From a virus, in the IMG/VR virus record IMGVR_UViG_3300032229_000649, positions 1 to 43,915 of that record: DNA of 43,915 nucleotides; one strand, 5' to 3'. The notes under the pieces were generated by a model. The model did no database searches. It saw nothing but the letters and a program-made list of their open reading frames with translations, and was not told the origin of the DNA. This document shows, piece after piece, positions 2,262 through 19,969 of this stretch (positions are counted from its first letter, which is position 1; every line of letters starts with the position of its first letter). The position numbers and the translations under genes were made by a program.

Positions 2262-2362
2262 TATACATTATCCTTTTTTTCAGAGTCTTTTTCAGATTCT
2301 TTCATTGCTGGAAATGACTTTTGATTGTCAGATAAAGCTTTTGGCATAATAGCCTCTTCCAT
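2261..2362 (-). CDS. Very small Lys/Glu-rich hypothetical protein (33 aa)
   Basis: A 33-codon ORF begins four bases after the stop of the giant gene and ends in a one-base overlap with the next ATG. The sequence (MEEAIMPKALSDNQKSF, then a Lys/Glu/Asp-rich tail) is likely disordered. It sits exactly in the gap between two certain genes. An internal ATG five codons in (MPKALSD) is another possible start. No family was recognised and support comes only from operon packing. Confidence 0.5.
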   Translation of the reverse strand: MEEAIMPKALSDNQKSFPAMKESEKDSEKKDNV

Positions 2363-2366
2363 ATCT

Positions 2367-5300
2367 TCAGGGATTGATAACACCTGTATCTCCTTTCACT
2401 TCTCCTATGGTTAATGCTAGTAGATTAGCTTCTTTTTGGAAACCCTCTTGTCGTAGCAATGTCAGCAATGTCTGGTGCCATGCTTGGTTATGGCCTCCTC
2501 CAGTATTGCTCTTCCATCCACCTTCCATAAGGTGAGCTATTTCGTGAAGCAAAGCTACCTTAGAAATTCCTCTTTTTCTAACCAAAACTACAGGGAACTC
2601 GACACCCTTTAAAGGATCTCCATCTGCGAAAGCTTCGCTATTTGCAAGACCTATACCAGCTTCAATTCCTCCACCATAAGGAGTTCCATCGGAACCTTCC
2701 CATGAAGGGTCATCTCCTAGCATCTTATCGGCTACAGATCCTCCAGCCAAATAGAATAGCTTGTTGCCATAACCATATTTTTTCAATATATCGGCAATAT
2801 ATTTTCCAATTTCATTTCTATCTTTAATTAGCTCTTGTCCTTCTAGAATTCTTGAGGCAAAAATTCCGTGTGCAGACTCTAAATTATCGTTATCTTTTCC
2901 TTCTTCTGAAGTACGGTCATAGTTAATGTCATCCCATAAATCGTATTCTTCATCATTGACAGTAAGTTTTGTAGGTTGTTTAGAGGCATCTTTATTCTTT
3001 GGAGTATTTTTAGCAATCTCTTCTCCAGTTTGACCTTGTTCTCCAACATTAGGTTCTGGAGTTGCTTCTGTAGTTTCAGGTGTTTGATCAGCGATCTGCT
3101 CGCCAGTTTGACCTTCACTGCCTACGCCTTCGCCAGCTTCTGGTGGACCAAAAGGATCGCTTTGAGCAATAAAGTCTGGAACTTCATCGCTAACAAGTTC
3201 TTTGTCAAAAACAAAACTTGGGTGCATCTCTGGTGGAACGTAACCTTCACTTACTGGCTCCCCTGCTCTATCACCAGTTGTCTCTACAAATTTTGGCTCT
3301 TTGTTGTTTTTAATTTGCTTAGGGAACTTTCCTTTTTCTGCATCTTCAACCATTTCGCTAGCTTTACCTCTAACAACGCGAACTGGGACAAAAGGAATGT
3401 TTTCAGCAATAGCTGCTTGTAATCTGTGATTTCCTTCGCCAACAAAAGCCATACCTGTTTCATCATCGTAGATAACCATGATTGGGTCGTTGAACGGCTT
3501 TCCATTGAAATCTCTTATTGCAAATCCTTTACCTTCACGAAGAGACTTTCTGTAAGACTCTATAGCTTCCTCGTTTCCAGCAACATTGCCAGCCATATCT
3601 TTTAGCGCATCGGTAGAAACAAAACCTACAGTGCTTCTGGATCCAACTAATCCGCCAGATCCACCATCTTTATAGTCTTGTAATCCTGGGAAAGAAGATC
3701 CAACTTGATCAGGTGTATCTCCTTTTTTAATTCCAAGCATCCAGTTAACTGCATCTTGAGCTTGCTTTGCAGCAACAATAATCATTCCCGGGTCATCTTG
3801 AAGAGGCTTCAACCAACCTTGTGCGTATGAAGCTGTATTACCCCAATCGATTTCTACACCAAACTCTGCAGCAATGAGTGCAACTGTAATTTCTGCAATA
3901 AGTTCTTCTTCGCCACGGCTTGCTTTATGGTTTCCATAGTTATCTTGAAGATCTTTGCGCTTTCCTTCTTTACCTAAGCGTGAGATATGTCCTGTGCTAT
4001 GACCTAATTCATGGAAAAGGGTTTCAATGAAACCTACACTAGTGTCAAACTGCTCTCTTAGTGGTAGATAAATTTTATCTACTGAAGGCAAGTAATAAGC
4101 CTTATCTTGAGGCTTGTAGATAATCTCTGGATGATCTGCATATGACTCTAATATTTGCTTTTCAATGTCTGAGACTGGAACTGGATCTTTCTTTACCAAA
4201 GGTGGAAGGTTTAGTTTCTCGAACTGAGAAACGTTAAATACTGGAACTTCTGTAAAGTAGATGTATCCTTCTTTTTTAATGCTTCCATCTGGCTGCTTTA
4301 CTTCTTTAGTTACAACGTTAGGCTTTAGAATCTTTGTGCCTGTCTCGCCCTTACGAACAAAGCCTCCTAGTGATTTACCTTGATTGAAGGTCAAGAATCT
4401 AGGGTCTGTCCAATCATTTAGATGCATTGCTGCCCAGAGAGCAAGTGTGTTAGTTCCTTGATAACTCTTGTTTGTTTTTCCGTTTGTTGGAAGGAAGCCT
4501 CCGCCAGACCATCCCTTTGTCCAAGGAACAACGCCCTTTTCAATAAGTTCGATTAGTCGGTTAGCAACTTCCAAAGTCTTCTGATCTGTAATCTTTCTAG
4601 CCTTGACAACCTCGTTGCCAACCTCTTCTGGAGTTACAGGTTCTGGATCTGGTGTAACGGTCATTCCGCTAAGTTTTTCAACGTCAGTTAGCTGAGGCTT
4701 TTCATCATCTTCAGATGTGACATCGTAAATCCACTTTAGGTTTTCTCCAATGTCAATAGCCTTCTTTGCGCGAGTAGCGGCAACGTATGAGATTCTAAGT
4801 TCTTCTGGGTCAGGAAGTTGCATCTCTCCTTCATCATTGATCTCAGGTTGCTTGAAATCATCAAAAAGCTTTACGCGATCCCATTCTTTACCCTTTGACT
4901 TATGTGCTGTAATAATTTCAGCGTCAATAGGGATTCTTGGAGGATAGTTTTGTACCCATCGTCTAACATCGTTAATTAAATTAAGGATATCTTCTTCTTG
5001 CTCTTTTCCAAAAGCCTTTTCAAAAGAGAATTTTTCTGGGTTATATGTAAAGTCCTTCAAAAGAAAATCTTTATATGACTTTGAGTTTTGGAAAGATATT
5101 ACTCCGTCTTTAATTGTGTATGTAAGCTTTCCTTTAAACCCACTATTAGTTCTACCAGTACCGAGCTCTCCAGTAATTCCGTCTGCGAGTGCTTCCTTGC
5201 CTACAGGAACGTATGCATCTGTTCTAAACCCTGTACCACGGATAGGAGTAATACTGTTGAGCTTATCTACCAACTCTTTTATAGTCATCTTTCTATCTCT

Positions 5301-8300
5301 TAGAAGACGAACCATGTACATCGCTCCACCTACTGATTTGCCATCCTGAACTGCCTTTAGGACTTCGTTCCAGTTTTGGAAACCTGCTAAATCTTCATGG
5401 AGTTTTGGCTTCTTGTATGCAGGTGTTCCCTTGTTAGCTGCAATCAACCATGCTGCAGACTTTGCATATGACATAGCCTTGTAGTAGGTCTCTAAGTTTA
5501 ATCCTGGATTCTTTCCCTTAGCTAATAGGTCAAAGACACTGTCGATAACTCCACCGTTTGATCTAGCAATAATTGCAGTAGGGTCTTCCATATTCTCTAC
5601 AATTTCGCCGTCGTCTTCTCCAGGCTTTCCTACTACCTTATTTTTAGAGTTAAGTAGAGTTAGGAATCTGTTTCCTATTCCTGCAACCTTTGCACCGAAA
5701 CGGAATGTCTGAGTTAGGTATAGCTCTTTTGCATTCTTTACGTTATTAAGCTCATCTACAGCTCCACGGAATGCATAGATAGCTTGATTACTATCTCCAA
5801 CATATACCTTTTGAATTCCTTCTTGGTCAGCCAAAAGTTTTACAATTACTGGGTTCATATCCTGAGCTTCATCAAAGAAGAACATATCGTTCTTTCTATC
5901 TTTAAATTGCTTAGTGCTAGTTGATCCAGAATTTAAACCATCTACAAATTGAGGTTTAGTTAGCGCCCAAGCTTTAAGCATATGTGAGTAATCAATTCTT
6001 GATAGCTTCTTTGAGGAAGGATCCCAACCTTCTTCAGTACTTACATCTTTCCACATTTTCTTTGCATACTCGACAAGAATTGGTGGAACTGTGTCGTAGA
6101 ATGGAGTTTTCTTAGTGAAATGCTTTTCAGTTAAGACATCATCTGCTGAAATTGCAAATCTATCTACTGCTTCTCTTATCTCTTGAACAAGATCGTTTCT
6201 TCCTAGAGTTGTTTCTGTGCCTCTGATAGATACAGTTACTGGCTCGTACTGGTAGTACTCAAATAGGTTTACATAGTCAGTGTAATCGATAAGACTTCTC
6301 TCATTTATCTTAAAGACACTGCTAAGTTTATTTCTTTCCTTGTGATTATCTGGAAGCATTGAGTAGACAATGTTGTCCATAGTTCTAGAATCTACGTTCT
6401 GAGGCATTCTGCCTTGAGCTTCTTCAGCAGTTTCTTTGTTAAATACAATGTAGAGAAGTTTCTTAGCTGGATTTTCTGCCAAAATTCTCTTTGCAGCAAG
6501 AACTAGAGTAGAAGTCTTTCCAGTACCAGCCAAAGCTTGAACTATGACATCTCCACCAGTCATAATTGCATCAACAATCTTCTTCTGCTCTTCTGTTGGA
6601 GGGAACTTAGAGATGTTGTTATAGTCAAATGAGCTCTCTGATTCACCAAGAAGAGTTCCGTTGCCAAAGTTATCGGCGTCTGTTCCTTCAGTATCTTCTG
6701 GTTCATTGATAACAATCATTGCGTTAAGATTTGTTACTGGATCTATGAAGTCTTGGAGAACTCTCTCAAGCTCTAATGAGAATGAACGCTTGTCATTCTC
6801 GGTACGCCAGATAATTGATCCGTCTGGTTTAATAGTTGCAACAGGTTGATTTCTAAGGAATAGATCCTTAGTTGCTCTAAATACAATTAAGTCATCTGCT
6901 GAATCTAAGCTTAAATCTACGCCTTTATCTTTAAGCTCTTTCTCAGTTGGTTTGTCTATTGCAAAAGTTACATCGAATAGATTTCCAGTTTTAAGACTTG
7001 GAAGAGAGCTTTCAGTTGTTCCTCGTGCAGGAAGATTCTCTTTTACCTTTGAAACTACAGAAGTAGATGTCTTTACAAAGTTAGTTTCCTTTACCTTGTC
7101 ATCTCGTTCTTTTTCTGCAGACTTAAACTTCTCTGCAAGCTCATCAGGATTTACTGCGCCTTCTGCAGGTGTAGTTCCTTGAATGTCCTTGATCTTATTT
7201 GCAATATCTTTAACAGTTGTCTCACCCTTAGGCTTAACTACTGGTACAAATTCAGGTCGGAAAACAATTGAAAGATTCTTAGCCGCTACAGGCTCTCTTT
7301 CATTAGTATCGTCATATCTAACCTTTACATAATTCTTATACTTTCCACCCTGATATGAATCAAGAAGAACGCTTACAGTTCCAGTTCTCTTAGTCTTGGC
7401 GTGGATAACCTTGTCGCCAGGCTTAATTAAAGTAACTCCGTCAGAGGAGATATGGAAACCTGTTTCTCCTTCTGCGTTTTCAGGCTTAGCAGTTACTGCC
7501 TCTTTAATGGTTTCATCGACATTAAGGCCCTTGACAGCTTCTTCAATAGATGCATCTGGCTTAGAGGTTGTGATCGCATCAATTGCATCGTTAACAACTG
7601 TTGCTACCTGCTCAGGAGTTACATCCTCACCCTTAACAGGCTGTATTTCAGGGATAACAACTGGATCAACGTCTGGAATAGCTTCGATAGTTTCTGTCTC
7701 TATCTGGGCATTGGTCTTGTCAGCATTTTCTTTTCTGCGATAAATTCCGCCTTCTAGTTTTTTATTTAAGAACCAGCCAGTTCCACCGTCTTCTCTTGGG
7801 GACTGTCTTTCTGTAAAAATTTGACCAGTATTGAGATTTGCCCTTAAAACTTTTACAAAATTAGATGGATCTACTTCGTCGTCTTCTAATTTAACAACTT
7901 CAAGCAAATCTCCATCAAAACCAAAAATAAAGTCGCTAGGCTTTATATCTTTGACTCTTGCATTAGGAATAAAGTCTGTGTTTTCTGGATCTTTAACCCA
8001 TTCTTCATTAATTTTATCTCCGTATAAAGGTGAGACATATTCCTTTGGAGAGTCTGAAGATTCTTCGCCTTCAACAATAGTTACAGGTTCTTCTACTACA
8101 GAATTTACTTCATCTATAGCTGCATCAACATTTTCACTAGTTACAGGTTTTCCAGCAAGTCCTTCAGAAACAATCTTGTCAGCTTCTCTCTTAGAAGCTT
8201 TCTTCTTTTCTTCAGCTAGAGAAAGTACCCACTTCTTAAATCCTTCTGCGTAAGCTGCGCTTCCTCCAGTAGGAATGTTGCCAGCTTTGAGATTTTCAAG

Positions 8301-11300
8301 TAGCTTTCTTAGAACTTGATCGGTTACTCCAACATCGAATAATGCATTGTGGAAATCAGAAGAGTCAGTAGTAACTCCTAGACGCTCTGCTAGTTGATTA
8401 AGAGCATTAGAAGGTGCTTTCCATGAACCTACACCTGAGCTATTTATAGTCCATGTCCAAGCGTTTCCTAGAGCGGAGAAAGCTTCATCTCCTTCTGCAG
8501 GATTCTCAGGGAATGTAACTGTCCCACGTTCAATTTTTTGCAGTGCTTGAGCAATTGGTAGCGTGTCAATTGATCCCTTTAGCTCAAAATCAATTCCAAC
8601 TTTCTGAGCCCAGCGCTGTAATACGTTTAAATCAAATCCAATATTTTGTCCAACAAGAATTGGATCTGCGCCAAAGAAGTCAACAAGTTTTTGTAGCTGA
8701 TCCTTGATGCTTGGCTGTGTAGCTAGCCATTCATCTGTTATTGGGTTGCCTTCAGCATCTCTCATTCTATTTGCACGAAGAACCTTGTTTCCTTCACTAT
8801 CTGTTTCATAATAGTAATCGCCCAAAGGCTTTTCAGGATTAATGTAGATGTTAAGCTCTTCTACCTTTTCACCACCAACATATCTAACCGCAGCTGCTTG
8901 GATAGGCGCATCTGGGTTTAATACGTTCTGTACATCGTTTCCTAAAGTTTCAAAGTCAAAAACTACATATCCATTTTCTCTAGCATCTAGAGCTGCTTGG
9001 ATGTTAGCTCCATCTCCGAGGTCCAAAAGCAACTCGGCTGAACCGTAGAATGCAGGTAGTTTTGGCTTGGATACTTTCGGTGCAACCTCGATAGATCCTT
9101 CAGCGTTAAAGGTGTATCCCTTATCTGCTTCTGCAATTTTTTCTTGACGTTCTTTTTCAAGCTGAGAATAATTAGGAAGAGACTTATCTGGTCTATCTAG
9201 AGGTTCTTTATCTCCTGATGTTGGAAGATTTACTTCTCCACGAATAATGTCGATTGGGGTAGCTTCACGCCATTCCTTAACCTGTGTTTGGTGTCCAACA
9301 TAGTGTCCTTCAAGAGATGTAACTCCATCTTTAGTTCCAAGAACCTTGGTAACTGTGAAGAACTCTTTAGCCCCATTTTTGTTCTTTCTAAATGCAATAT
9401 CTCCAACTTGAACTTCAGATGCTGGTACGTTAGATACATAAGATGCTTTTTCAACTGGCTTAACAGGAGTATTTTCAGTTTCATTGTTAACTGCTTCTAC
9501 TTCTGGAGGAGTCCAAAGACCCTTACGGCGTTCAGCTTCTTTCTTATATTCTGCTAAAGCTGCTTCGTATCTTTCTATATCAGCAGGGTTCTTTAATCCC
9601 CACTTCTTTCCTTCGGTACCGTTTGGTCGCTTGAATGTTCCAATTATTTGTAGTTTTCCAGTAGGACTAAAAGACTTCATTTCTGGCTTGCTCAGTACTG
9701 GTAAGTCTCCCTTTTCTGGAGGTGTAACTCCACGGTATACCTGTACTTCTGTGTCGTCTGCCCAAAGCTTAGTACTTTGTTCTACAGAGTTTGGATAGTA
9801 TCCAGTAAGTCTAGTCGCTGGAACTGTTTCCATATCTCTATCTTTAGTAAGACCTGTTTCAATACTTACAATTGTAAAATAATCATCTTTGAAAACATCG
9901 CCAGGCTTTAAGTTAGGTGCAGCAACCAAAGCGATACTTGGTTGTGGTCCTTGAGGCTTTTCTGTTTCTTTAACCTCTGCAGTAGGAGCTTCTTCTGGCT
10001 TTTCAGCTGGCTTTGAACCAAGAACAATGTCATCAATTATCTTTGTAACTGCATCTAGCTCATCTTTGAGAGCTTTCTTCTGTGCTGGAGTTGTTTCTTC
10101 AGAAAGATCTGCCTTATCAATTTTTCTTTGAATCTTACGACGCTTGTCAACAAGAGCCTTAAGAATTTCTTTATCTCTCTCAGTAAGAGGAGTTGGCTTT
10201 TCTTCTGCAGCTGGTGCAGGAGGTGTATCTGGCTTTTCTTCTGCTTCTGCAGCTGGTGTTTCTACGACAGGTGCTGCTTCTGGTTTTTCAGATGGCTTAC
10301 TCTCTGCTTCAGCTCCAGTGCTTTCTGGCTTATCTGGAAGGTTCTTAATGAACTCCCAACCAAGCTCAGCATTAACTAAACGACTAATGTCTTCCATTTC
10401 TTCTGTAGTCAAAGAATCTAACTGGAAAAGCATCTGCTTTACTGCTGAACGTCGAGGGAAATCTAAAGTAAATGCGTCTTGACCGAACTCTGAATCAACA
10501 ATCTTAATCATCATTTGTTGACGATGACGCTTTTCTTTCTTAAGAGCTTTTCTTTCTGCTCTTGTCAGTTTTTTGCGTTGCTGTACTTGCTTGATTAAAG
10601 CATCAAGATTAGGGTTCTCATCTTCTTTAACGCTATCAATTAAAGCTTCATCAACTAAATCTGAGTCATCATCATCTGCTACTTCTTCTCCGCCAAGATC
10701 TTCAGGGGCAGTAAATTTGTAATCGTCCCACCACTCCCCTCCGTACTGCTTTCTAGGAATAGGTAGCTCATCTACAATTTCACCAGTATTAATATTTACC
10801 CAAGAACCGTCTTCTTGCTTAATCCAAGTAGATGATCTGCCATTAAGATCTTTACTGGTAGCTCTAGTTCCAGCAGGTAGTTCATCAAACTCTTTTGGAG
10901 ACTTCTGTCCTCTTTTTACAGCTTCTGCTTCTTCGAGAAGACGATTATTTTCTTCTATTTCTTTCATTAAATCTTCTGGCTCTGCCCCAGGTAATTCTTT
11001 TTGTATCTTTGCAAGTACGTCACCTAGCTCGGCACGCTCTTGAAGAAGAACTTTAATTTTATCGTCTATGTTTCCTTCAGATACAGAAGTTAGAAATTCC
11101 TCTGGAGGATCAGTTTGAATTACTGTTTGTTGACTTGTAGGGGTTTCGTCACTAGGTATGCCTAGAGGATCACGAGTATATAATTCTTGGTCAAATTCAG
11201 TACCATCTTCTTTTTTCCATCCCTCCATGGTTTTCCATGTACCAGTTTGTGGATAATATGGACTACCGTCTGTATATTCAACTCTCCAGATAGATGGTTT

Positions 11301-14300
11301 ATTAGGGGTATCAAATTTTCTTTCTGATACACGAGTTACTATTCTCCAGCCAACGCCAGGAATATAAACTTCGTCTCCCGGTTTGAGATCTTGTGGACGC
11401 TTTTTAGTGTACTTAAGTTTTTCATCTACAACTACTGCTTCTTCTTCTTCTTTTGGAGTTTCCTCTACTTCTGGTGTTTCAGGGGACCCCTTAAGCTCTT
11501 CAAGAGCTCTTTTAATTCTTTCAATTCTTCTTGCCATCTTGTCTTTTACATCAGGCTCTACATCTTCTCGCTTGATTAGTCTTTCAACCATATCAAGCTC
11601 ATCTTCTAATTCTGCAATATCTCTTTCTTCTTTAGTAAGAGCTGGAACTTCTGGAGTTGCTTCAGGTGTTGGAGCTTCTGGAGCTTCTGGAGTAGGAGTT
11701 GGTGCTGGGGCATCAATGTCAATTGGGTCTTGAGCAGGTGAGTTTGGAGTTGCAGCACGAGGTTGTAGATCGATACCAAAACGATCACGAAGTTCACGAG
11801 CAAACGCTTTAAATTCTTCATCAGTTTGTAAAGCAGATTCTGAATTAACTGGAAGAGTTTTTCCATCTCTTTCAACAGTTCCAGTCCACTCAAAACCATT
11901 CTCGTCTAAGAAGTCTGCAATTTCTTTATCTTTAAAAGCTCCGCCAGCACCAGCACGAAGAAGAGTGCGATTACCTGAACGCTTGTATGTAACTGCCTTT
12001 TTAGGCTTGACTTCTTCTTCTTTTGTATCTGGCTCTACTTCTGGCTCTTCAGAAACAGGAGGCTTTATTCTTGCCTTTGCTTTTCCAGCCTTCTTATTAA
12101 TCTTTTCAATAATTGCATCTGTATCTTTACCCTTAAGCTGGAGAGCATCTCTAAGAGCTTCTGCAGGAACGGGAGAGTTTACAAGTTCTCCGTTAGGGTC
12201 TTCGGTTAGCATTTCTCCAAAACCTGGTCCATGCTCACCAGTGCCATTAATAGCGTTGCTTAGTTCGTCAGTTAAGTCTTTAACTTTATTTGCAGACAAA
12301 TCTAAAGCTGTAGTTGGAGGTACATCTCCTTGAAGATCTTTTGGAGTGTAGTTTTCTTTAGGGTCAACTGGATTTGGATCTAACTTATAAAGACCTTCTG
12401 GAGTATCTATGTCTGCATTCTTTGGCAAGAATGGTCGGTAGTCGCCATCCTCTTTAAAGGATGCTAACTCTTCTTCTGAAAGACCTTCAAGTAGAGGAGG
12501 GACATATGTATCTTCAGATACATCTTCAACATCTTCTAATCCATCTTTAATATCTTCAGTAGGTTCTGGGGTAGTAGCCTTTGGTTCTGGCTTTTCAATT
12601 TCATCTTCAATAATTTTGTCAGAAGGTGAAGGATCTATCTCGCCATCTTCAATTGGAGCTTCTTCTACAACAGGTTCTTTTTCTCCTCTAGATTCTAGGA
12701 GAGCCTTTTCATTGTTATTGTTTCCAGCAATCTTGTCGTAAGCCTGTGCAAGAGCCATTTCAGCATCTCCACCTTGCTCACGAATTGCTGCAGCGATAGC
12801 TTCTGCTGGAACATCTCGTTCACGGCCATCTGTAAAGTTAATTGGGGCGTAGCCAGTTGCTTTTTCAGTATCACTAACAGGTTCTACTGCTGTAAGAAGA
12901 GCATCTTCTAGCTCCTCTGGTACTTGATCGTTTGCAATTGTTACAGGATCATCAAACTCAAATTCTGGTGTGTACTCTTCGTTAGGATTAAGTTCGTAAG
13001 CTCTCTCTGGAACTTCATAAGGAAACGCAGAGACTTCTTTTTTCTTTTTATCAGCCTTCTTCTTTGTTGGCTTAAAGATATCGTCTGCTTGATCAAGTAG
13101 AGGAACATTGTCATCTGCAGTCTGTTGCTCTGGGCGTGTGTATTCACGACCCTCATCTTCATCAAGGAAAGGTTCGTCACGGAGGATTTCATTGTTTACA
13201 TCTTTCCAAGACTGAGCAAATGCAAGAGGTGTATTTTTGCCACGACGATAAACCGCAAGAACTGGCTCATCAGGGTTCCAAAACTGCTTACCTGAGTCTG
13301 GATCAATTTCGCCCTTCTTAAGAAGCTTTGGTTCTGGCTTATCTAACTCTGCAGCTCTCTTCTGACCTTCACCGATTGCTGTCTGTGCATCTTTAGGGTT
13401 ATTAAATTTAACGATGTCATACTTGTCATCTGTGTATCGAACAGCACCACTTTTTGTTTCTTCATCTTTGCGATAAATACTTGGTGCATCGGAGATAACA
13501 ATGCTGCTTTCTGGAAGTACCTGTGCTCCATTAGGAACTTCTGCTTCTACTGGAGAGTAGCCATCTTCTGAGTCCTTGCTTTTAATAAAAGCTTCAAGAC
13601 CTTCACCAAGCTTTGTAGGTACTGTTGCAACTTTACCCTTGCCCATTTCAATATCAACAAGGTTAGGATCAAACATGTTCTGGTTTAGTAGTTCACCTGA
13701 AAGACTTCTTGTAGAACCATCGTTTCTAGCAACATAAACACGGAAACCATCGGTAGCTCTTTTAGCTAAAGATGCTCCCATATTAATCCAACGCTCAAAT
13801 CGGTCTGAAAGCTGTACAGCTTCACGAGCACGGCGAGCTGCGGCAGAGTTCTTACCAGCGTAAGGGTTTGCGGCAGCTAGTAGAACTTCAACAGGCACTT
13901 GTCCTTGAGGCATATTCTCTAGACGAATCATTGAGTACTTATGCTCTGGTGAATCGATAGGAGAGAACATTGCAGATGCCAAGAGGCCCTTTACTGTCTC
14001 ATCCTTAATGCGTGGATCATCAAGTACCCAACGCATCTGAGCTTCTGCAAGTGCAGATGCTGTCATTGTGTTAAAGCGAGTTGATCTTGGGTGAGATACT
14101 GGAAGTAAATCTGTATTAAATGCTTCTAGGCCAACAATTTTGTTGTACTTGGCTAGAGAAATGTAGTTAGAGAGCTCTGTAAGTGCTTGATGCTTGCGAA
14201 TAGAGAAAGGAAGTCCTCTAGTTTTTTGTAGAGAACGAGCAAGAACCTTGTATGCAGACCTACGATTTACTCTACGGCTTGTTGTAGAAAATTCGTTGGC

Positions 14301-14396
14301 TTTTTCAAGTAAAACATTTGCTTCTTGACGAATAAAACGTGCCTGTTCACGGCTGCTATATGCTCTGTAAGAGCTTACAACAATTTTATTCTCCAT
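2367..14396 (-). CDS. Giant polyvalent protein: exonuclease, SF1 helicase, ArdC-like zincin, ParB-like and second zincin domains
   Basis: A 4009-residue protein. Residues 1-110 end in DLLPVSHPRST, a motif shared with the preceding gene product. Up to about 1780 it is mostly acidic, Pro/Glu-rich linker with small repeats (VPAEA units near 530 and 744). KPGD-type beta segments lie near 1006, 1498, 1666, 2154 and 2328. A DnaQ-type 3'-5' exonuclease spans about 1790-2035 (DFET near 1813, a VGQNIGFD block, HNALFD near 2016). An SF1 helicase spans about 2595-3225: AGTGKT near 2625, DEAQD near 2842, GDSNQAIYAFRG near 2865, TAHKSKGKEWD near 3165, AATRA near 3208. An ArdC-like module (VPWTKGW near 3293, zincin HELGH near 3461) is followed by a ParB/Srx-like GEGNHR near 3653 and a C-terminal zincin (HEIAH near 3951). 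This matches phage polyvalent proteins thought to be injected with DNA to counter host defences. Its start overlaps the upstream gene by 11 bases, with SD AAAGGGAG. Confidence 0.95.
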   Translation of the reverse strand: MENKIVVSSYRAYSSREQARFIRQEANVLLEKANEFSTTSRRVNRRSAYKVLARSLQKTRGLPFSIRKHQALTELSNYISLAKYNKIVGLEAFNTDLLPVSHPRSTRFNTMTASALAEAQMRWVLDDPRIKDETVKGLLASAMFSPIDSPEHKYSMIRLENMPQGQVPVEVLLAAANPYAGKNSAAARRAREAVQLSDRFERWINMGASLAKRATDGFRVYVARNDGSTRSLSGELLNQNMFDPNLVDIEMGKGKVATVPTKLGEGLEAFIKSKDSEDGYSPVEAEVPNGAQVLPESSIVISDAPSIYRKDEETKSGAVRYTDDKYDIVKFNNPKDAQTAIGEGQKRAAELDKPEPKLLKKGEIDPDSGKQFWNPDEPVLAVYRRGKNTPLAFAQSWKDVNNEILRDEPFLDEDEGREYTRPEQQTADDNVPLLDQADDIFKPTKKKADKKKKEVSAFPYEVPERAYELNPNEEYTPEFEFDDPVTIANDQVPEELEDALLTAVEPVSDTEKATGYAPINFTDGRERDVPAEAIAAAIREQGGDAEMALAQAYDKIAGNNNNEKALLESRGEKEPVVEEAPIEDGEIDPSPSDKIIEDEIEKPEPKATTPEPTEDIKDGLEDVEDVSEDTYVPPLLEGLSEEELASFKEDGDYRPFLPKNADIDTPEGLYKLDPNPVDPKENYTPKDLQGDVPPTTALDLSANKVKDLTDELSNAINGTGEHGPGFGEMLTEDPNGELVNSPVPAEALRDALQLKGKDTDAIIEKINKKAGKAKARIKPPVSEEPEVEPDTKEEEVKPKKAVTYKRSGNRTLLRAGAGGAFKDKEIADFLDENGFEWTGTVERDGKTLPVNSESALQTDEEFKAFARELRDRFGIDLQPRAATPNSPAQDPIDIDAPAPTPTPEAPEAPTPEATPEVPALTKEERDIAELEDELDMVERLIKREDVEPDVKDKMARRIERIKRALEELKGSPETPEVEETPKEEEEAVVVDEKLKYTKKRPQDLKPGDEVYIPGVGWRIVTRVSERKFDTPNKPSIWRVEYTDGSPYYPQTGTWKTMEGWKKEDGTEFDQELYTRDPLGIPSDETPTSQQTVIQTDPPEEFLTSVSEGNIDDKIKVLLQERAELGDVLAKIQKELPGAEPEDLMKEIEENNRLLEEAEAVKRGQKSPKEFDELPAGTRATSKDLNGRSSTWIKQEDGSWVNINTGEIVDELPIPRKQYGGEWWDDYKFTAPEDLGGEEVADDDDSDLVDEALIDSVKEDENPNLDALIKQVQQRKKLTRAERKALKKEKRHRQQMMIKIVDSEFGQDAFTLDFPRRSAVKQMLFQLDSLTTEEMEDISRLVNAELGWEFIKNLPDKPESTGAEAESKPSEKPEAAPVVETPAAEAEEKPDTPPAPAAEEKPTPLTERDKEILKALVDKRRKIQRKIDKADLSEETTPAQKKALKDELDAVTKIIDDIVLGSKPAEKPEEAPTAEVKETEKPQGPQPSIALVAAPNLKPGDVFKDDYFTIVSIETGLTKDRDMETVPATRLTGYYPNSVEQSTKLWADDTEVQVYRGVTPPEKGDLPVLSKPEMKSFSPTGKLQIIGTFKRPNGTEGKKWGLKNPADIERYEAALAEYKKEAERRKGLWTPPEVEAVNNETENTPVKPVEKASYVSNVPASEVQVGDIAFRKNKNGAKEFFTVTKVLGTKDGVTSLEGHYVGHQTQVKEWREATPIDIIRGEVNLPTSGDKEPLDRPDKSLPNYSQLEKERQEKIAEADKGYTFNAEGSIEVAPKVSKPKLPAFYGSAELLLDLGDGANIQAALDARENGYVVFDFETLGNDVQNVLNPDAPIQAAAVRYVGGEKVEELNIYINPEKPLGDYYYETDSEGNKVLRANRMRDAEGNPITDEWLATQPSIKDQLQKLVDFFGADPILVGQNIGFDLNVLQRWAQKVGIDFELKGSIDTLPIAQALQKIERGTVTFPENPAEGDEAFSALGNAWTWTINSSGVGSWKAPSNALNQLAERLGVTTDSSDFHNALFDVGVTDQVLRKLLENLKAGNIPTGGSAAYAEGFKKWVLSLAEEKKKASKREADKIVSEGLAGKPVTSENVDAAIDEVNSVVEEPVTIVEGEESSDSPKEYVSPLYGDKINEEWVKDPENTDFIPNARVKDIKPSDFIFGFDGDLLEVVKLEDDEVDPSNFVKVLRANLNTGQIFTERQSPREDGGTGWFLNKKLEGGIYRRKENADKTNAQIETETIEAIPDVDPVVIPEIQPVKGEDVTPEQVATVVNDAIDAITTSKPDASIEEAVKGLNVDETIKEAVTAKPENAEGETGFHISSDGVTLIKPGDKVIHAKTKRTGTVSVLLDSYQGGKYKNYVKVRYDDTNEREPVAAKNLSIVFRPEFVPVVKPKGETTVKDIANKIKDIQGTTPAEGAVNPDELAEKFKSAEKERDDKVKETNFVKTSTSVVSKVKENLPARGTTESSLPSLKTGNLFDVTFAIDKPTEKELKDKGVDLSLDSADDLIVFRATKDLFLRNQPVATIKPDGSIIWRTENDKRSFSLELERVLQDFIDPVTNLNAMIVINEPEDTEGTDADNFGNGTLLGESESSFDYNNISKFPPTEEQKKIVDAIMTGGDVIVQALAGTGKTSTLVLAAKRILAENPAKKLLYIVFNKETAEEAQGRMPQNVDSRTMDNIVYSMLPDNHKERNKLSSVFKINERSLIDYTDYVNLFEYYQYEPVTVSIRGTETTLGRNDLVQEIREAVDRFAISADDVLTEKHFTKKTPFYDTVPPILVEYAKKMWKDVSTEEGWDPSSKKLSRIDYSHMLKAWALTKPQFVDGLNSGSTSTKQFKDRKNDMFFFDEAQDMNPVIVKLLADQEGIQKVYVGDSNQAIYAFRGAVDELNNVKNAKELYLTQTFRFGAKVAGIGNRFLTLLNSKNKVVGKPGEDDGEIVENMEDPTAIIARSNGGVIDSVFDLLAKGKNPGLNLETYYKAMSYAKSAAWLIAANKGTPAYKKPKLHEDLAGFQNWNEVLKAVQDGKSVGGAMYMVRLLRDRKMTIKELVDKLNSITPIRGTGFRTDAYVPVGKEALADGITGELGTGRTNSGFKGKLTYTIKDGVISFQNSKSYKDFLLKDFTYNPEKFSFEKAFGKEQEEDILNLINDVRRWVQNYPPRIPIDAEIITAHKSKGKEWDRVKLFDDFKQPEINDEGEMQLPDPEELRISYVAATRAKKAIDIGENLKWIYDVTSEDDEKPQLTDVEKLSGMTVTPDPEPVTPEEVGNEVVKARKITDQKTLEVANRLIELIEKGVVPWTKGWSGGGFLPTNGKTNKSYQGTNTLALWAAMHLNDWTDPRFLTFNQGKSLGGFVRKGETGTKILKPNVVTKEVKQPDGSIKKEGYIYFTEVPVFNVSQFEKLNLPPLVKKDPVPVSDIEKQILESYADHPEIIYKPQDKAYYLPSVDKIYLPLREQFDTSVGFIETLFHELGHSTGHISRLGKEGKRKDLQDNYGNHKASRGEEELIAEITVALIAAEFGVEIDWGNTASYAQGWLKPLQDDPGMIIVAAKQAQDAVNWMLGIKKGDTPDQVGSSFPGLQDYKDGGSGGLVGSRSTVGFVSTDALKDMAGNVAGNEEAIESYRKSLREGKGFAIRDFNGKPFNDPIMVIYDDETGMAFVGEGNHRLQAAIAENIPFVPVRVVRGKASEMVEDAEKGKFPKQIKNNKEPKFVETTGDRAGEPVSEGYVPPEMHPSFVFDKELVSDEVPDFIAQSDPFGPPEAGEGVGSEGQTGEQIADQTPETTEATPEPNVGEQGQTGEEIAKNTPKNKDASKQPTKLTVNDEEYDLWDDINYDRTSEEGKDNDNLESAHGIFASRILEGQELIKDRNEIGKYIADILKKYGYGNKLFYLAGGSVADKMLGDDPSWEGSDGTPYGGGIEAGIGLANSEAFADGDPLKGVEFPVVLVRKRGISKVALLHEIAHLMEGGWKSNTGGGHNQAWHQTLLTLLRQEGFQKEANLLALTIGEVKGDTGVINP

Positions 14397-15378
14397 CTTC
14401 TTCTCCCTTTATTGGAAGAAGGTCTCCATCTAAGCTGTCATAACCAAGAGATGCTAGAAGAGATGCTCGCTTGAATGGATTCTCTCCATTACGAACTGCA
14501 CGAAGCCAAGATGCACGAACTGCATGCTCTGCTTCGTATCCAAAGCCTGAATACTCTGCCATAGCAAGGATTGCTTCTTCTGGAGATGAGTAATCTTCTT
14601 CAGGAAGAAGGTCAATATTTAATTCTTGTTCGTAACGCCACTCGTTAGCAAGCTTTGCTAGCTCTTGTGGTGATTGGATTTCGTTTCCGAGCTTCTCACC
14701 TTCGAGAACTCCAACATCAACGACGCCATCTGGGATAACCGCAAAACGACACTTACCTTCGTCCTCGACTTCGAGTTCGATGATTCTGCACGAGCCATTA
14801 CCCATGTATAAAACACAGTTAGAGCATTTGACTCCGATACCTCTGACATCATTTTCGGCTGGAGGTGTGTATCCTGCCCAGATTCCTGTGGCATCTTCAT
14901 TGAATCTTCCATATTTGTCTGCAATCTCGACTAGCGCTTCTGCTAGATCGCTCTCTTCAGGAACCAAACCTGCTGAAGCTGCAATGGAGTTTGATTTCTT
15001 AGTTGAACGTGGATGTCCAGAAGGAAGTAAGTCATTATCTGTCTTGTATGCAGAGTTTGATGGCTTTCCAGACTTCAACAACTTAAGAAATGCATTCACT
15101 CGACCCATTGCCCATTGGTTGCGAGTCATTCCTGGACGATGTGAGACGCTGTAAGCACCTGCACCTCTGCGATAGACAGCTTTTAACATTCCGACGGTTG
15201 CACGACGACCTTTACCTGCTTTTTCGTTGTGCTGTTCGACTTTATTCTTTAAAGACTTCTCTACTGCTGCAGAAAACTTAACTTTACGAGTTCCTGACGC
15301 AGATCCTTTAGCATTTTTCTTAGAACCCTTAACTTGATCCTTCTTAGGAGCAGGAGTTTGAGAAATAGTGCGTGACAT
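14386..15378 (-). CDS. Head-region protein with RGAGAYS...DLLPxGHPRST block and Cys cluster
   Basis: This encodes 330 residues with a very basic N-terminus. Residues about 60-125 hold a conserved phage block: RRGAGAYSVSHRPGM, NQWAMGRVNAFL, and DNDLLPSGHPRSTKK. I know this block from structural-region proteins of actinophages and marine phages, but no biochemical role is known to me. Near residue 190 is a C-x2-C...C...C group (VKCSNC, GSC, GKC) followed by FAVIPDG, probably metal or Fe-S binding. The short DLLP string recurs twice more (NIDLLPEED, GDLLPIKG). The ATG overlaps the portal stop (TAATG), and the 3' end overlaps the giant gene. A capsid-assembly or packaged-protein role is inferred from position. 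Confidence 0.88.
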   Translation of the reverse strand: MSRTISQTPAPKKDQVKGSKKNAKGSASGTRKVKFSAAVEKSLKNKVEQHNEKAGKGRRATVGMLKAVYRRGAGAYSVSHRPGMTRNQWAMGRVNAFLKLLKSGKPSNSAYKTDNDLLPSGHPRSTKKSNSIAASAGLVPEESDLAEALVEIADKYGRFNEDATGIWAGYTPPAENDVRGIGVKCSNCVLYMGNGSCRIIELEVEDEGKCRFAVIPDGVVDVGVLEGEKLGNEIQSPQELAKLANEWRYEQELNIDLLPEEDYSSPEEAILAMAEYSGFGYEAEHAVRASWLRAVRNGENPFKRASLLASLGYDSLDGDLLPIKGEEDGE

Positions 15379-17063
15379 TACTGCTCTTGCCCTTCTGTTG
15401 GGGTCTCGGCTGTAATACCTGCTTCTTCTGCACCTTCACTTGCAGCATCTAATGCTTGCTGAAGCTCTGGTGGGATAGGAGCAACGGATGATTGCTGTTG
15501 CTGTGAACGGACTGTGTTAATAACCTCTGGTGCAATTGCTGACAGCATTGCTTCTGTAAATTCTGGTGTAAGTACGCCACGTTCTTGTAGAAGTCTAATT
15601 GAAAGTTCTTTTGGAGTAGGTGCATCTGCATCTGAGAAGCCATGAGCACGACGCCATGTGTTTGCAGAGACCGCCATGCGATCAAATCCTGCGTCTGCAT
15701 CTGTTGCACGGTCATTACGAGTTGCAATTGCTGATGGGTCATACCAAACAACAATCTTGTTAACTTGTGTTTCTTCAAAACCATTTGCAATAAGGTATGG
15801 ACGAAGGTAAACAACTGTTAGAGCATCTGCAATGAGCAACATAAGTGGCTCAATGTGTGCCTTATATAGTGATTCATCAATCTGCATTGCATTTGAGTAC
15901 TTAACATTTGCTAAACCTGTAACAACATCCTTTGGAACATCTAATCCTTGAAGGATGCGCTCTAGTACACGATCAGAACGCTCAGCTAGTGCTGGGTCGA
16001 ATGAACGCTCAAACTTAAACTGCTTAATCTTGTCGCCAAGTTCTGCAGGACCACGAATGATAAGAGGAACAACTGCTGATGCGGACTCTTCGTCACGAAT
16101 CGGAGTTGTCATCGCATCCATTAACTGCTCTTCGAATTCATCTTCCGCTTCTTCGGCAGTAAACCCTGCGCCGATACCATCCTCAGAATCGTAGGGGAAG
16201 TCGCCGTCACCTTGCGACGCGACGGAAAGACCATCTGGTAAATAAAGCGCACCAGCATTGAGACGAGAACGAGCAGTCGCACGGAATGTCCTATTCAGTA
16301 GAAGGAGTTCTGCACAAAGATCAAGCAAACCACGAAGTGATGAATCTGCTTCATCTGAAAAACGAGGATGTGAACGCCACATGCGTCCAACAAATGCATT
16401 CTTACCTAGCTTTGAATTCTTATCTATTCCACCTTGTGTTGTAGTGGATTGTTCACGACGACCAATAACATTGAAACCGCCACGAGGATCTGTTGTTACT
16501 TCATCAACGGAACGAATGTCCCAAGACTCTGGCAAGTTATATGCTGGTCGTGCTGGCATCTGAACTAAATAACATTCTCCAGCTACTGCAAGGTTAAGTG
16601 CAGCATCTCTTAATAAACCTGCTTGTCCACCATATGCAGAATTTAATCGTGCAAGTGCACGTTCTGCCGCAGCTCCAAGACGATCATCAACTAGTTCTGA
16701 TTGACGAACAGAGATTGGAGTCTCTGATGGATCATCAACAACAGCTGCATAAATTCTGATACGAGATACAACTGACGCAACTAAATTGAATGCGTATTTG
16801 ATTTCACCAATAGCGTCGTAGTATTCCCAAGCTTCTGCTTGCCATGCGCTAGATCCAGCAGAGCGACGAATTCTAAATTGCTCAAACTCACCCTTGTCAT
16901 TAACTTTAATTTGAGCTGCTGCAGCTGTAAGAGTTCTAGGAGTTGAGTATGTTGCTGCCTGAGCTGTATTTGTAAAAACATTAGTAAATGTTGAATTCTG
17001 AGGCTTTTTATTTTTTGACTGTGGAGACGGAGGTGTTACTTCGTCATTGGTAAATATACCCAC
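15378..17063 (-). CDS. Portal protein
   Basis: This encodes 561 residues, a normal portal length, starting at GTG with a good Shine-Dalgarno (AAGGAG, 5-base gap). The body has portal-type features: an N-terminal wing with EYYDAIGEIKYAFNLVASVV, a central region with GRMWRSHPRFSDEADS, an acidic loop near 300-320, and the C-terminal segment ERILQGLDVPKDVVTGLANV followed by KYSNAMQIDESLYKAHIEP. In actinophage portals that last segment forms the long helix and clip region. The tail is Gln/Glu-rich and probably flexible. The portal ring is the gateway for DNA packaging. The terminase large subunit that would dock on it is not in this window. Confidence 0.93.
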   Translation of the reverse strand: MGIFTNDEVTPPSPQSKNKKPQNSTFTNVFTNTAQAATYSTPRTLTAAAAQIKVNDKGEFEQFRIRRSAGSSAWQAEAWEYYDAIGEIKYAFNLVASVVSRIRIYAAVVDDPSETPISVRQSELVDDRLGAAAERALARLNSAYGGQAGLLRDAALNLAVAGECYLVQMPARPAYNLPESWDIRSVDEVTTDPRGGFNVIGRREQSTTTQGGIDKNSKLGKNAFVGRMWRSHPRFSDEADSSLRGLLDLCAELLLLNRTFRATARSRLNAGALYLPDGLSVASQGDGDFPYDSEDGIGAGFTAEEAEDEFEEQLMDAMTTPIRDEESASAVVPLIIRGPAELGDKIKQFKFERSFDPALAERSDRVLERILQGLDVPKDVVTGLANVKYSNAMQIDESLYKAHIEPLMLLIADALTVVYLRPYLIANGFEETQVNKIVVWYDPSAIATRNDRATDADAGFDRMAVSANTWRRAHGFSDADAPTPKELSIRLLQERGVLTPEFTEAMLSAIAPEVINTVRSQQQQSSVAPIPPELQQALDAASEGAEEAGITAETPTEGQEQ

Positions 17064-17101
17064 GAAAACTCCTTGTCATCTCAGTTGCGGAATACGAAGG
17101 C

Positions 17102-17398
17102 TTACTTATCTTCATATGCAGTCAACAAACCAGCGATAGCCGATACAGCGTATATTGTAGCGATTATGTAGGTTACTGTTGGAATAATGATAGCCGAGAT
17201 TACGAACCCTGATCCTATCCAAAAACTAAAGCACCACTCACAGGTGGATAGGTAGCCAAGATAGGAAGACTCTGGCGGAAACTTTTTCCAAAAGGCATTA
17301 CGCAAGGGGGCTGTAACCATGTCACGAGTTATTAATCGAGTCACACGATATGTAGCTAGCCCTAGAAGGATAAATTGTAGGAGGGTTAGATCATTCAT
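17102..17398 (-). CDS. DUF1360-like membrane protein
   Basis: The 98-residue protein opens LLQFILLGLATYRVTRLITRD, followed by a C-E-W-C motif (STCEWCFSFWIGSGFV) and a second hydrophobic segment. This is the layout of the DUF1360 family, small two- to three-helix membrane proteins found in bacteria and in many actinophages next to structural genes. Its biochemical role is unknown. The start overlaps the stop of the upstream gene by four bases (ATGA). The portal start lies about 40 bases downstream in the same direction. Confidence 0.82.
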   Translation of the reverse strand: MNDLTLLQFILLGLATYRVTRLITRDMVTAPLRNAFWKKFPPESSYLGYLSTCEWCFSFWIGSGFVISAIIIPTVTYIIATIYAVSAIAGLLTAYEDK

Positions 17399-17763
17399 TC
17401 TGTTGGATCCTCACTTGAATAGACCGAATTGTTTTGCCCGTAAGGGTTCCAGCCTCTAAGACGAGACCCACAACCGCAGGAAGCGTCTTTTATAAAAGCT
17501 ATAACCTTTTCGGACTCAGTTAAAACTGCTTGAAGTTTGCCTTCAACGTGCCTATGGATGAATTTCTCTCTGAATACAAGTGTAGGTCCAGTAGGAGAGT
17601 CTTGCGCTATCAAAATGGTATCTCCCAATAGAACAACTCGAACTCTATCTACCTTGCGAGTTCCTTCTGGAGACGGTCCAGGTATGGTGAACTCATCTAA
17701 CCCAATGGAATTGGGTGGAGCGATCCAAACTAATGCTGGGAAGACATCTGAAATCGCTCTCAA
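17395..17763 (-). CDS. Hypothetical protein, structural operon
   Basis: The 122-residue product has a beta-rich N-terminal part (VWIAPPNSIGLDEFTIPG, RVRVVLLGDTILI) and a C-terminal CGCGSRLRGWNPYG segment. I cannot name the family with certainty, but this composition is typical of small proteins encoded upstream of actinophage portals. The Cys-Gly-Cys-Gly turn could bind metal. It overlaps the next gene by four bases and follows the previous one by only three bases, which supports co-translation. Confidence 0.75.
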   Translation of the reverse strand: MRAISDVFPALVWIAPPNSIGLDEFTIPGPSPEGTRKVDRVRVVLLGDTILIAQDSPTGPTLVFREKFIHRHVEGKLQAVLTESEKVIAFIKDASCGCGSRLRGWNPYGQNNSVYSSEDPTE

Positions 17764-17766
17764 GGA

Positions 17767-18105
17767 TTATCCAAACTCTATATATTCATCGGGGACATAG
17801 AAATCATTCCACCCTAAGGTGTAAGTTGCTAGTTCTAAGTCAAGAATGACTGGAGCCTCTCTAGAACTGTCTTCAATATTTAAATCAAAGTCTTCTAAGG
17901 TCTTCACATGCTTTGCTTCCTTCCACGCATAGTGTCCTTTAAGGGCTACTAAGGGGAAAGCCATAGGGTAGCTAGAGTTAGGGGCGGACATAGTCTCAAG
18001 GAAGCGCGATTGAGGTCTTTTAGTCTTCTTAGGGTTCTTCCACACAACCACAACCAGCTCTGTGTCCTTGTATGTGCCTGTCTTTGTCTTGTAAAGGCGG
18101 CTCAT
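17767..18105 (-). CDS. Hypothetical protein, structural operon
   Basis: This encodes 112 residues, starting at an ATG four bases inside the 3' end of the upstream gene. The sequence is mixed alpha/beta with a basic N-terminus (MSRLYKTKTGTYKD) and an acidic, aromatic C-terminus (LGWNDFYVPDEYIEFG). No signal peptide, membrane segment or recognisable catalytic motif is visible. Gene overlap and strand support a real gene; its role is unknown. Confidence 0.72.
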   Translation of the reverse strand: MSRLYKTKTGTYKDTELVVVVWKNPKKTKRPQSRFLETMSAPNSSYPMAFPLVALKGHYAWKEAKHVKTLEDFDLNIEDSSREAPVILDLELATYTLGWNDFYVPDEYIEFG

Positions 18106-18599
18106 TGGCTCAAACGCCTTGCCATAGCCCTATAGGTGACTCCAGCGGCTTCTGCGATGGTAGCTGTAGGGACGCCACGGTTCCTAAGTTGCCTTGCAAT
18201 CTGAGTTAGCTCGTTATTAGCTTGAGCTAAAGGACTAGTTGGAGGTGTCTTGGCTCTGTAGCGCTTTGAGAGGGCTGAAAGCTCACGAAGTCTGATTCTT
18301 AGCTCTGGAGGGACACCCGGAGAGATGGACTTGAGACGAGGGGCGTGCTTTGTAGGCACAGAGGTCGTCAAAGACTTTGGGGGTGGCAGTGGAACTGCTT
18401 TTAACTGCTTAACGTCAGGGGCTCTACGGACCCAGAAGTGAATTGTGGTCTTAGGAACAGCGGGGCTGAGAGAACCACCTATAACTCCTAGTGACCAGCC
18501 TGACTTCCACAACGCACGAAGGCGTGACTCCATCTCTGAGCGTGTCAGAGTTGAAATATAGATAACCTCCTCAATGGGAAGTTTCGGTGGGTTCAGCAT
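18102..18599 (-). CDS. HTH DNA-binding protein at head of structural operon
   Basis: I choose the ATG at 18599 (MLNPPKLPIEEV), giving 165 residues, rather than an upstream ATG at 18740. A TACAAT -10-like hexamer lies six bases before the ATG at 18599, and translation from 18740 would run through a repeat-like segment (CCCGGAAAATAC). Residues about 10-70 contain a helix-turn-helix-like segment (TRSEMESRLRALWKSGWSLGVIGG). The C-terminus has a second one (RNRGVPTATIAEAAGVTYRAM). The middle is Pro-rich. Two HTH-like ends at the first position of the structural operon suggest a transcription regulator or a terminase-like DNA recognition protein. Which of these applies cannot be told from sequence alone. 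Confidence 0.72.
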   Translation of the reverse strand: MLNPPKLPIEEVIYISTLTRSEMESRLRALWKSGWSLGVIGGSLSPAVPKTTIHFWVRRAPDVKQLKAVPLPPPKSLTTSVPTKHAPRLKSISPGVPPELRIRLRELSALSKRYRAKTPPTSPLAQANNELTQIARQLRNRGVPTATIAEAAGVTYRAMARRLSQ

Positions 18600-18980
18600 A
18601 GTCCTATTGTACAGAGTTTTAGAAGGGGTGTACGAGAAGAAAGGGGATCCAATCTTGTACGACAGCTTTAAATATATGAACCTTTCCATATTTTGCTTTT
18701 GGCCCCGGAGAAGGCAGAGGGTATTTTCCGGGTTTTTCAAAATCGTTCCGGGCCTTTTTTCTAAAAAATCTTTTTTATTTTTTCCCCCCTTAAATTTTAT
18801 TTTTTAAGACTTTAAAACTAAAACTAGAGAAGGCATAGCCTTTTATTTTTTATTTTTTTCTATTTTTAACAGGATTTAAGGTCATATATTAAGACCTCTA
18901 TTTTTATTTTTCTTTTTCTTTTATATCTCTTTATTATTTTTATAAAGGTCTTACTAATAAAACTACTGACTACTAACTAC

Positions 18981-19070
18981 TACTGACTAGTAACTTACTC
19001 ACTAGTAACTTACTCACTAGTAACTTAATACCTTCTAGCCTACTGACTAGTAACCTACTGACTATTAGCC
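18981..19070. repeat. Six tandem 15-bp iterons
   Basis: Six units follow in exact 15-bp phase: TACTGACTAGTAACT, TACTCACTAGTAACT twice, TAATACCTTCTAGCC, TACTGACTAGTAACC and TACTGACTATTAGCC. A seventh, TACTGACTACTAACT (18964-18978), lies just before, offset by two bases. Four units carry the palindrome ACTAGT. An initiator protein or repressor could bind these; the AT-rich flank favours an origin. Confidence 0.8.
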
Positions 19071-19116
19071 TAGAAAAGTATGACTAGTCATATACACGAA
19101 ATGACCACTTATAGAC

Positions 19117-19145
19117 TTGCAAAGTGCAGGAAGGTAGTTTATATT
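19117..19145 (+). promoter_or_regulatory. Sigma-70-type promoter with conserved spacer
   Basis: TTGCAA, a 17-base spacer (AGTGCAGGAAGGTAGTT), then TATATT. The GCAGGAAGGTA core in the spacer is shared with the other promoters of this phage. It drives the plus-strand gene at 19192. Confidence 0.75.
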
Positions 19146-19152
19146 TATCTTA

Positions 19153-19171
19153 TTGAAGCAAGGGGCTTCAA
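19153..19171 (+). promoter_or_regulatory. 5' leader hairpin with AAGGG loop
   Basis: TTGAAGC-AAGGG-GCTTCAA lies just after the predicted transcription start (7-bp perfect stem). It belongs to a group of leader hairpins in which stems differ but still pair. Confidence 0.6.
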
Positions 19172-19191
19172 TAACAAAAAGGGAGAAACAA

Positions 19192-19464
19192 ATGTCATAC
19201 GGAGTATCAATTACAGTAAAGTATTCAGAAACAACTTCAACTGGAACAATTACAAAAGAAACAAACTATAACTTCCACGTTGATACCGCATCAAGTGCAA
19301 GTAGCCTAATTACTGATACCGCAAAGAATGCAAAGGAAATGAATGCAGAAGTTGTAAAGGTTGCCGTAACAAATGAAACTAAAGGTTCTTATACAAGTCC
19401 TTTTAACGGCAGTTACAAAGAACTTACAGACAGCGAAATCTTGGACTTACTCCTAACCAAGTAA
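19192..19464 (+). CDS. Hypothetical plus-strand protein (90 aa)
   Basis: The start is the ATG at 19192 (MSYGVSITVKYSET), ten bases after a GGGAG Shine-Dalgarno. An earlier in-frame ATG at 19153 would cover the leader hairpin and is rejected. The product is Thr/Ser-rich, with alternating polar and hydrophobic residues suggesting a beta-sheet protein, and has no cysteines. It has its own promoter, leader hairpin and strong terminator, so it is a monocistronic gene. Together with the next gene it is one of only four supported plus-strand genes. Function unknown. Confidence 0.8.
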   Translation: MSYGVSITVKYSETTSTGTITKETNYNFHVDTASSASSLITDTAKNAKEMNAEVVKVAVTNETKGSYTSPFNGSYKELTDSEILDLLLTK

Positions 19465-19475
19465 CCGCAAGAATT

Positions 19476-19510
19476 AGCCCCCCTATCCAAGGGGGGCTTT
19501 TTCTTTTTCT
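19476..19510 (+). terminator. Rho-independent terminator
   Basis: AGCCCCCC-TATCCAA-GGGGGGCT, then TTTTCTTTTT, immediately after the plus-strand gene. Confidence 0.9.
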
Positions 19511-19542
19511 AAGACACACCGCACAAAAGCTTCCCTCTAATC

Positions 19543-19571
19543 TTGCAAAGTGCAGGAAAGTAATCTATTCT
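19543..19571 (+). promoter_or_regulatory. Sigma-70-type promoter with conserved spacer
   Basis: TTGCAA, 17-base spacer AGTGCAGGAAAGTAATC, TATTCT. It is nearly identical in -35 and spacer core to the promoter at 19117-19145 and drives the gene at 19613. Confidence 0.75.
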
Positions 19572-19612
19572 TTCGGTAGTGGGAAACCAAGTACCACAAT
19601 AGGGAGAAACAA

Positions 19613-19954
19613 ATGAAACTAGCAATTAAACTAACCGCAGAAGGAAACGCTTCTATCATTGACTTAACGGCAGATAGTAACGAACTACTAACACTTCAAA
19701 TGGCGGTAGGTGGTCTTATTGAACCAAAGACTCTTGCAAGTGGTTACACACTTATTATGAATGAAGAAGGAAAGTTGCAAGGTCTTCCAATAAATTCAAG
19801 AGCCACCGAAATTTGGTTGGCTAACTTCCCAAACTTTCCTGATGTAATTCTCGGTGATGTAGTTATTGCAGGGGGTTATGATGATGAAGGTGAGCAACTG
19901 GGTCTTGATAAAGATTATGCAGACCGCTTGTTGAAAGTCTTTGCACAAGCATAA
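19613..19954 (+). CDS. DUF3846-like protein
   Basis: The 113-residue product has the hallmark of the DUF3846 family: a region with ELLTLQMAVGGLIEP, then LIMNEEGKLQGLPINSRATE, and a DVILGDVVIAGG turn. Proteins of this family are common in phages and plasmids and have no established function. The start has a clear AGGGAG Shine-Dalgarno. The gene has its own promoter and terminator and converges on the lysis-type cluster. Confidence 0.85.
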   Translation: MKLAIKLTAEGNASIIDLTADSNELLTLQMAVGGLIEPKTLASGYTLIMNEEGKLQGLPINSRATEIWLANFPNFPDVILGDVVIAGGYDDEGEQLGLDKDYADRLLKVFAQA

Positions 19955-19969
19955 GAACTAAAGCAAAGA

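Follow-up and report, generated by a model that had tools for sequence, protein, structure and literature searches.

A candidate divergent control region at the head of the virion genes of a freshwater actinobacterial phage

RESULTS

Organization of the divergent locus

The window analyzed here, 43,915 bp long, is an entire IMG/VR record and probably a fragment of a larger genome. Its source is a freshwater actinobacterial phage of ~135 kb, the length that its closest contigs reach. One relative (G2) is circular, at 134,908 bp once a unique (non-repetitive) 123-bp overlap is removed. Another (G1) closes only via a repetitive 51-bp end overlap, which was rejected as proof of circularity because it lies inside collagen-like repeats. 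The portal protein of the window is 74% identical to that of phage DSL-LC01, grouping it with the large actinobacterial phages, and the other phages with similar portals are the Microbacterium phages Pumpernickel, Zooman, Cece, and A3Wally. The locus is kept in about 80 relatives, and there were no nucleotide matches to it in the searched collection of cultured phages.

The divergent gene border reported from the sequence alone is borne out by a minus-strand gene starting at 18596, which encodes a protein with two predicted helix-turn-helix (HTH) domains, and a plus-strand gene starting at 19192. The intervening gap opens on the left with three GTACA boxes, continues with a conserved block and a T-rich spacer, and ends on the right with an array of 15-bp repeats, a palindrome, and a sigma-70-like promoter:

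18102 to 18596, minus strand: HTH gene, first in the leftward run HTH-x-x-x-portal-giant protein
18608 to 18660, minus strand: three TGTAC/GTACA boxes in one orientation (18608, 18629, and 18656), in the stretch from the HTH start codon to the conserved block; candidate sites of autoregulation
18670 to 18753, minus strand: conserved, single-copy noncoding block of ~84 bp; candidate late promoter or activator site
18755 to 18961, no strand assigned: spacer, T-rich on the plus strand; AT maximum of the record, conserved in composition and not in sequence
18984 to 19073, plus strand: array of six in-phase 15-bp inverted repeats, TTACT-N4-AGTAA, with a degenerate extension left to 18962
19080 to 19091, no strand assigned: palindrome ATGACTAGTCAT, of the family ATGACYRGTCAT, 37 bp ahead of the divergent -35 element (start to start)
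19117 to 19145, plus strand: sigma-70-like promoter of the divergent gene, TTGCAA-N17-TATATT
19192 to 19464, plus strand: divergent small gene, 90 amino acids
19476 to 19498: terminator-like hairpin after the 90-amino-acid gene
19543 to 19571, plus strand: second promoter, TTGCAAAGTGCAGGAAAGTAATCTATTCT, with a spacer motif common to the first
19613 to 19954, plus strand: second divergent gene, DUF3846 family (E value, 1.3e-15)

The locus stands at the head of a leftward run of HTH, portal, capsid, and tail genes, which in G1 proceeds through the portal, giant protein, capsid, and tail genes to replication genes. In the window, the 4,009-residue protein adjoining the portal gene (2367 to 14396) has helicase-like, exonuclease-like, and metallopeptidase-like stretches by eye. 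The HTH protein is modeled by AlphaFold2 with a mean pLDDT of 83 and helices at residues 8 to 58 and 122 to 163. Neither it nor the 90-amino-acid protein has a significant match in PHROGs or Pfam, and Foldseek returned no PDB matches at an E value of ≤0.001. The rightward promoter type recurs ahead of neighboring plus-strand genes; more generally, sigma-70-like promoters with a GCAGG-containing spacer motif (19117 and 19543, and 29157 and 29421 on the minus strand) precede small genes in the window, G1, and G2.

An array of 15-bp dyads and a promoter-associated palindrome

As the sequence-only reading had it, six 15-bp units lie in exact phase from 18984 to 19073 (starts at 18984, 18999, 19014, 19029, 19044, and 19059). 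Its assignment of ACTAGT cores to all six was slightly overstated because two units, at 19029 (ACCTTCTAGCC) and 19059 (ACTATTAGCC), have degenerate sequences, leaving four exact cores (18986, 19001, 19016, and 19046). The seventh unit that it placed nearby does contain a fifth ACTAGT, at 19083, but this copy is out of phase and forms part of the 12-bp palindrome. At a lag of 15, the array matches itself at 47 of 60 bp, compared to a maximum of 41 after dinucleotide shuffling; none of 500 local and none of 60 whole-window shuffles reached 47, and five ACTAGT sites in 141 bp were reached in 0 of 2,000 shuffles. Tandem Repeats Finder (TRF) reports 6.6 copies with a score of 107 and also offers a reading in units of ~7 bp.

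Read as TTACT-CACT-AGTAA, the unit is a dyad, a symmetry absent from the earlier reading. The units had been called iterons, but an inverted repeat of the form TTACT-N4-AGTAA lacks the directionality of an iteron. Exact dyads occupy 18995 to 19008 and 19010 to 19023 in the window, and relatives with few copies retain the dyad as GTTACT-N4-AGTAAC. Exact TTACT-N4-AGTAA is confined to this locus in the window, G1, G2, G4, and G5; G3 has two exact copies, both elsewhere, and none at the locus. Dyad copy number differs between close strains, even those whose HTH proteins are >90% identical, and drops to one or zero in deeper relatives, the array being lost in part of the clade.

Most relatives that have the palindrome place it about 25 to 26 or 34 to 39 bp before the divergent -35 element (start to start), two preferred offsets that are roughly one helical turn apart. 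In one group (L068, L073, L075, L077, and L079), it lies instead before the promoter of the second plus-strand gene, and therefore the palindrome tracks a promoter, in the manner of an operator.

A conserved noncoding block and an AT-rich spacer

Two elements adjoining the HTH gene, the ~84-bp block and the GTACA boxes, went unmentioned in the sequence-only reading. On the coding strand of the HTH gene, the block has the consensus CCGGAACGATTTTGAAAA-N18-CCTTCTC-N3-GGCCAAAAGCAAAATATGGAAAGGTTCATATATT. Identity between the window and ten relatives is 69 to 94% in the block, as opposed to 35 to 69% at the 4-fold sites of the HTH gene and 24 to 65% in the T-rich spacer, placing its conservation far above that of synonymous sites. 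Its core motifs occur once per genome in the genomes tested. The possibility that the block is a protein-coding extension of the HTH gene was rejected, since in several relatives an in-frame stop lies a short way ahead of the start codon. A structured RNA was rejected as well: Rfam scores fall far below gathering thresholds, and RNAalifold returns three pairs without covariation.

The block does not match a sigma-70 promoter, and a search for sigma-70 region 2 in three relatives found none, so any promoter role is read from its place and conservation. From its position at the start of the leftward virion-gene run, we infer that the block is a late promoter or activator site. Boxes similar to the GTACA boxes precede the HTH gene of DSL-LC01, whose product is 30% identical; GTACA clusters also occur elsewhere in the genome and are not unique to the locus. 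In DSL-LC01, this HTH gene (about 47065 to 47628) was missed in the annotation of OQ999401.1, where positions 46238 to 47402 carry annotated hypothetical genes in a CA-rich low-complexity stretch.

The T-rich flank described earlier is confirmed, with positions 18762 to 18961 (81% A+T) forming the most AT-rich 200 bp of the window. In the window and all seven relatives compared (8 of 8), the richest 200 bp of the record falls no more than 800 bp upstream of the HTH gene (75 to 85% A+T; z, 3.9 to 5.0), although these eight genomes are related and so are not independent cases. Relatives without the array also have their AT maximum at this locus and keep the block along with the AT-rich stretch. 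Since the sequence of the spacer has itself diverged between relatives, its AT-rich composition appears to be maintained.

DISCUSSION

A proposed divergent control region for the late operon

Our preferred reading, in which we have moderate confidence, is that the late (virion) operon is controlled from the gap at 18.6 to 19.15 kb, which would form a divergent control region equipped with a multi-dyad operator. Leftward, the conserved block would act as the single late promoter or activator site for the genes from HTH and portal through capsid and tail, and the HTH protein may control its own operon at the GTACA boxes. Rightward, the host-type promoter TTGCAA-N17-TATATT would drive the small genes, controlled by the TTACT-N4-AGTAA array and the ATGACYRGTCAT palindrome just upstream, to which a putative dimeric regulator would bind cooperatively. 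The T-rich spacer between the two promoters would supply a segment that is easily bent or melted.

This arrangement resembles the multi-operator divergent control regions of other phages in its divergent genes, its repeated dyad operators, and an HTH gene adjoining the sites; it differs from them in its very AT-rich spacer and in the position of the dyads, which adjoin the promoter of the genes running opposite to the HTH gene. In most relatives that have it, the palindrome stands at a constrained distance from a promoter, as is characteristic of the dyad operators of a divergent operator region. The sequence-only reading had offered either an origin or an operator set for divergent promoters: the latter has gained from the dyad unit, the promoter-tracking palindrome, and the variable copy number, and the former is weakened while keeping real support. 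A plain operator region alone leaves the AT maximum in all eight genomes unexplained.

Replication, packaging, and partition as alternatives

That AT maximum, which adjoins the HTH gene in every one of these genomes and in the window also supplies an AT-rich region next to the dyads, argues for an origin of replication, where an initiator would bind the dyads (or the block) and open the adjacent AT tract, as lambda O does at oriLambda, with divergent transcription adding negative supercoiling. The layout resembles that of oriLambda, where each iteron is an imperfect inverted repeat next to an AT tract (PMC7466680); the two have in common a set of short inverted-repeat units that directly adjoin an AT-rich tract and lie close to transcription starts. 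In the genomes tested, moreover, the block and the dyads are each confined to a single locus. However, the units here are spaced at 15 bp and not ~20 bp, they are intergenic and not inside an initiator gene, the AT tract spans ~200 bp, and part of the clade does without the array, which is missing from deep relatives that retain the AT tract. The initiator gene that the earlier reading proposed to look for did not appear among known families: Phage_rep_O, Rep_3, and the DnaA C-terminal domain gave no match above cutoff in G1 to G3, and thus no O-like protein was found there. Origins of Rep_3-type iteron plasmids likewise pair tandem repeats with an AT-rich region, but the repeats here are symmetric dyads and not directional iterons, and Rep_3 was not found in these three relatives. 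The GC skew, which had been expected to turn at an origin, changes cumulative slope near 96 and 22 kb in G1 and near 56 and 131 kb in G2, where the locus lies at 72.7 and 82 kb, respectively, and so turns about 25 kb away; because the skew follows gene orientation (at 4-fold sites), it is weak evidence either way. Pumpernickel and DSL-LC01 both have their AT maximum at a different region (locus B), where it precedes homologs of one and the same gene for a cysteine-rich protein, and the HTH gene of Pumpernickel is not preceded by a gap. Weighing these points, we consider an origin at this locus possible but unlikely. Slightly less likely still is a new type of origin in large actinobacterial phages, which would have the deeply conserved, single-copy ~84-bp element and the AT maximum lying between late and early promoters that diverge, along with dyad arrays that are specific to lineages and are bound by a putative, unrecognized initiator.

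The association of the HTH gene with terminase genes in some phages raises the alternative of a packaging site (pac or cos) that the HTH protein would recognize in the manner of a small terminase subunit. Homologs in Microbacterium phages lie directly downstream of the large terminase, in GMA2, a protein with a fold segment that matches is probably encoded by the open reading frame after the terminase, the Pumpernickel homolog has a weak Terminase_5 match (E value, 0.033), and the conserved block adjoins the HTH gene. The HTH protein may indeed be related to terminase-associated proteins, its C-terminal HTH aligning with the N-terminal HTH of the protein upstream of TerL in G1 (hhalign E value, 2.9e-5; probability, 74%). 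That neighbor, a two-HTH protein encoded directly upstream of TerL (L116:4710-5144 in G1, and also in G2 and G5), is a small-terminase candidate in its own right. A packaging site at this locus is nevertheless improbable: tens of kilobases separate the locus from the large terminase in G1, G2, and G5, where the terminase has its own two-HTH protein immediately upstream as the better candidate for the small subunit; Pumpernickel (NC_073468.1) has 19,963-bp direct terminal repeats (1 to 19963 and 166133 to 186095), the ends of which lie about 10 kb away from its HTH gene; the G2 circle closes via its non-repetitive overlap; and the block shows no accumulation of contig ends. A small cluster of contig ends, located upstream of the HTH gene at a distance of about 1.45 kb, falls at different bases in different strains and was read as assembly breaks.

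If a ParB-like protein bound the short dyads in tandem, the array might also form a centromere-like partition site, for which there is parS precedent in short tandem sites such as the heptads reported for plasmid pSM19035 (PMC9499535). The array shares tandem short sites in close phase with these omega/heptad operator-centromere arrays, and TRF can divide it into heptad-sized units, but its sequence and 15-bp dyad period differ from theirs. We regard a partition role as highly improbable, given that a ParA-type ATPase (AAA_31) was absent from G1 to G3 and present in all 14 controls and that the array is lost in part of the clade.

A second AT-rich region

Locus B is an AT-rich intergenic region just past the right end of the window, upstream of homologs of window positions 43381 to 43911 and about 23 to 25 kb from the divergent locus (G1, about 97.1 to 98.3 kb; G2, 57.5 to 58.3 kb; L124:17499-18278). 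It precedes a conserved cysteine-rich protein gene, a homolog of Pumpernickel gp283 (25 to 33% identity), and it is the AT maximum in DSL-LC01 and in Pumpernickel (A+T of 0.685 and z of about 5.4 in the latter) and among the top AT regions of G1, G2, G3, G5, and G7. In G1 and G2, it sits at the global divergence of gene orientation, and a related CGCGT...TGTGTG...CTACG motif is present there in G1, L160, L161, and DSL-LC01. Conserved out to Pumpernickel and DSL-LC01, locus B is a rival candidate for the origin.

Pumpernickel has a 1.16-kb noncoding gap ahead of gp283. GTTAC-type dyads are present at locus B of DSL-LC01 (17792 and 17835 in L124), and the 13-mer TCATAAAGTACTA occurs exactly twice in that phage, at locus B (L124:17884) and upstream of the HTH gene (OQ999401.1:46898).

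The divergent control region proposed here is a small, testable segment that combines a very strongly conserved noncoding element with the AT maximum of the genome, in a phage whose relatives recur across many metagenome contigs, and the second, more widely conserved AT-rich region emerges as a further candidate for the origin of replication.
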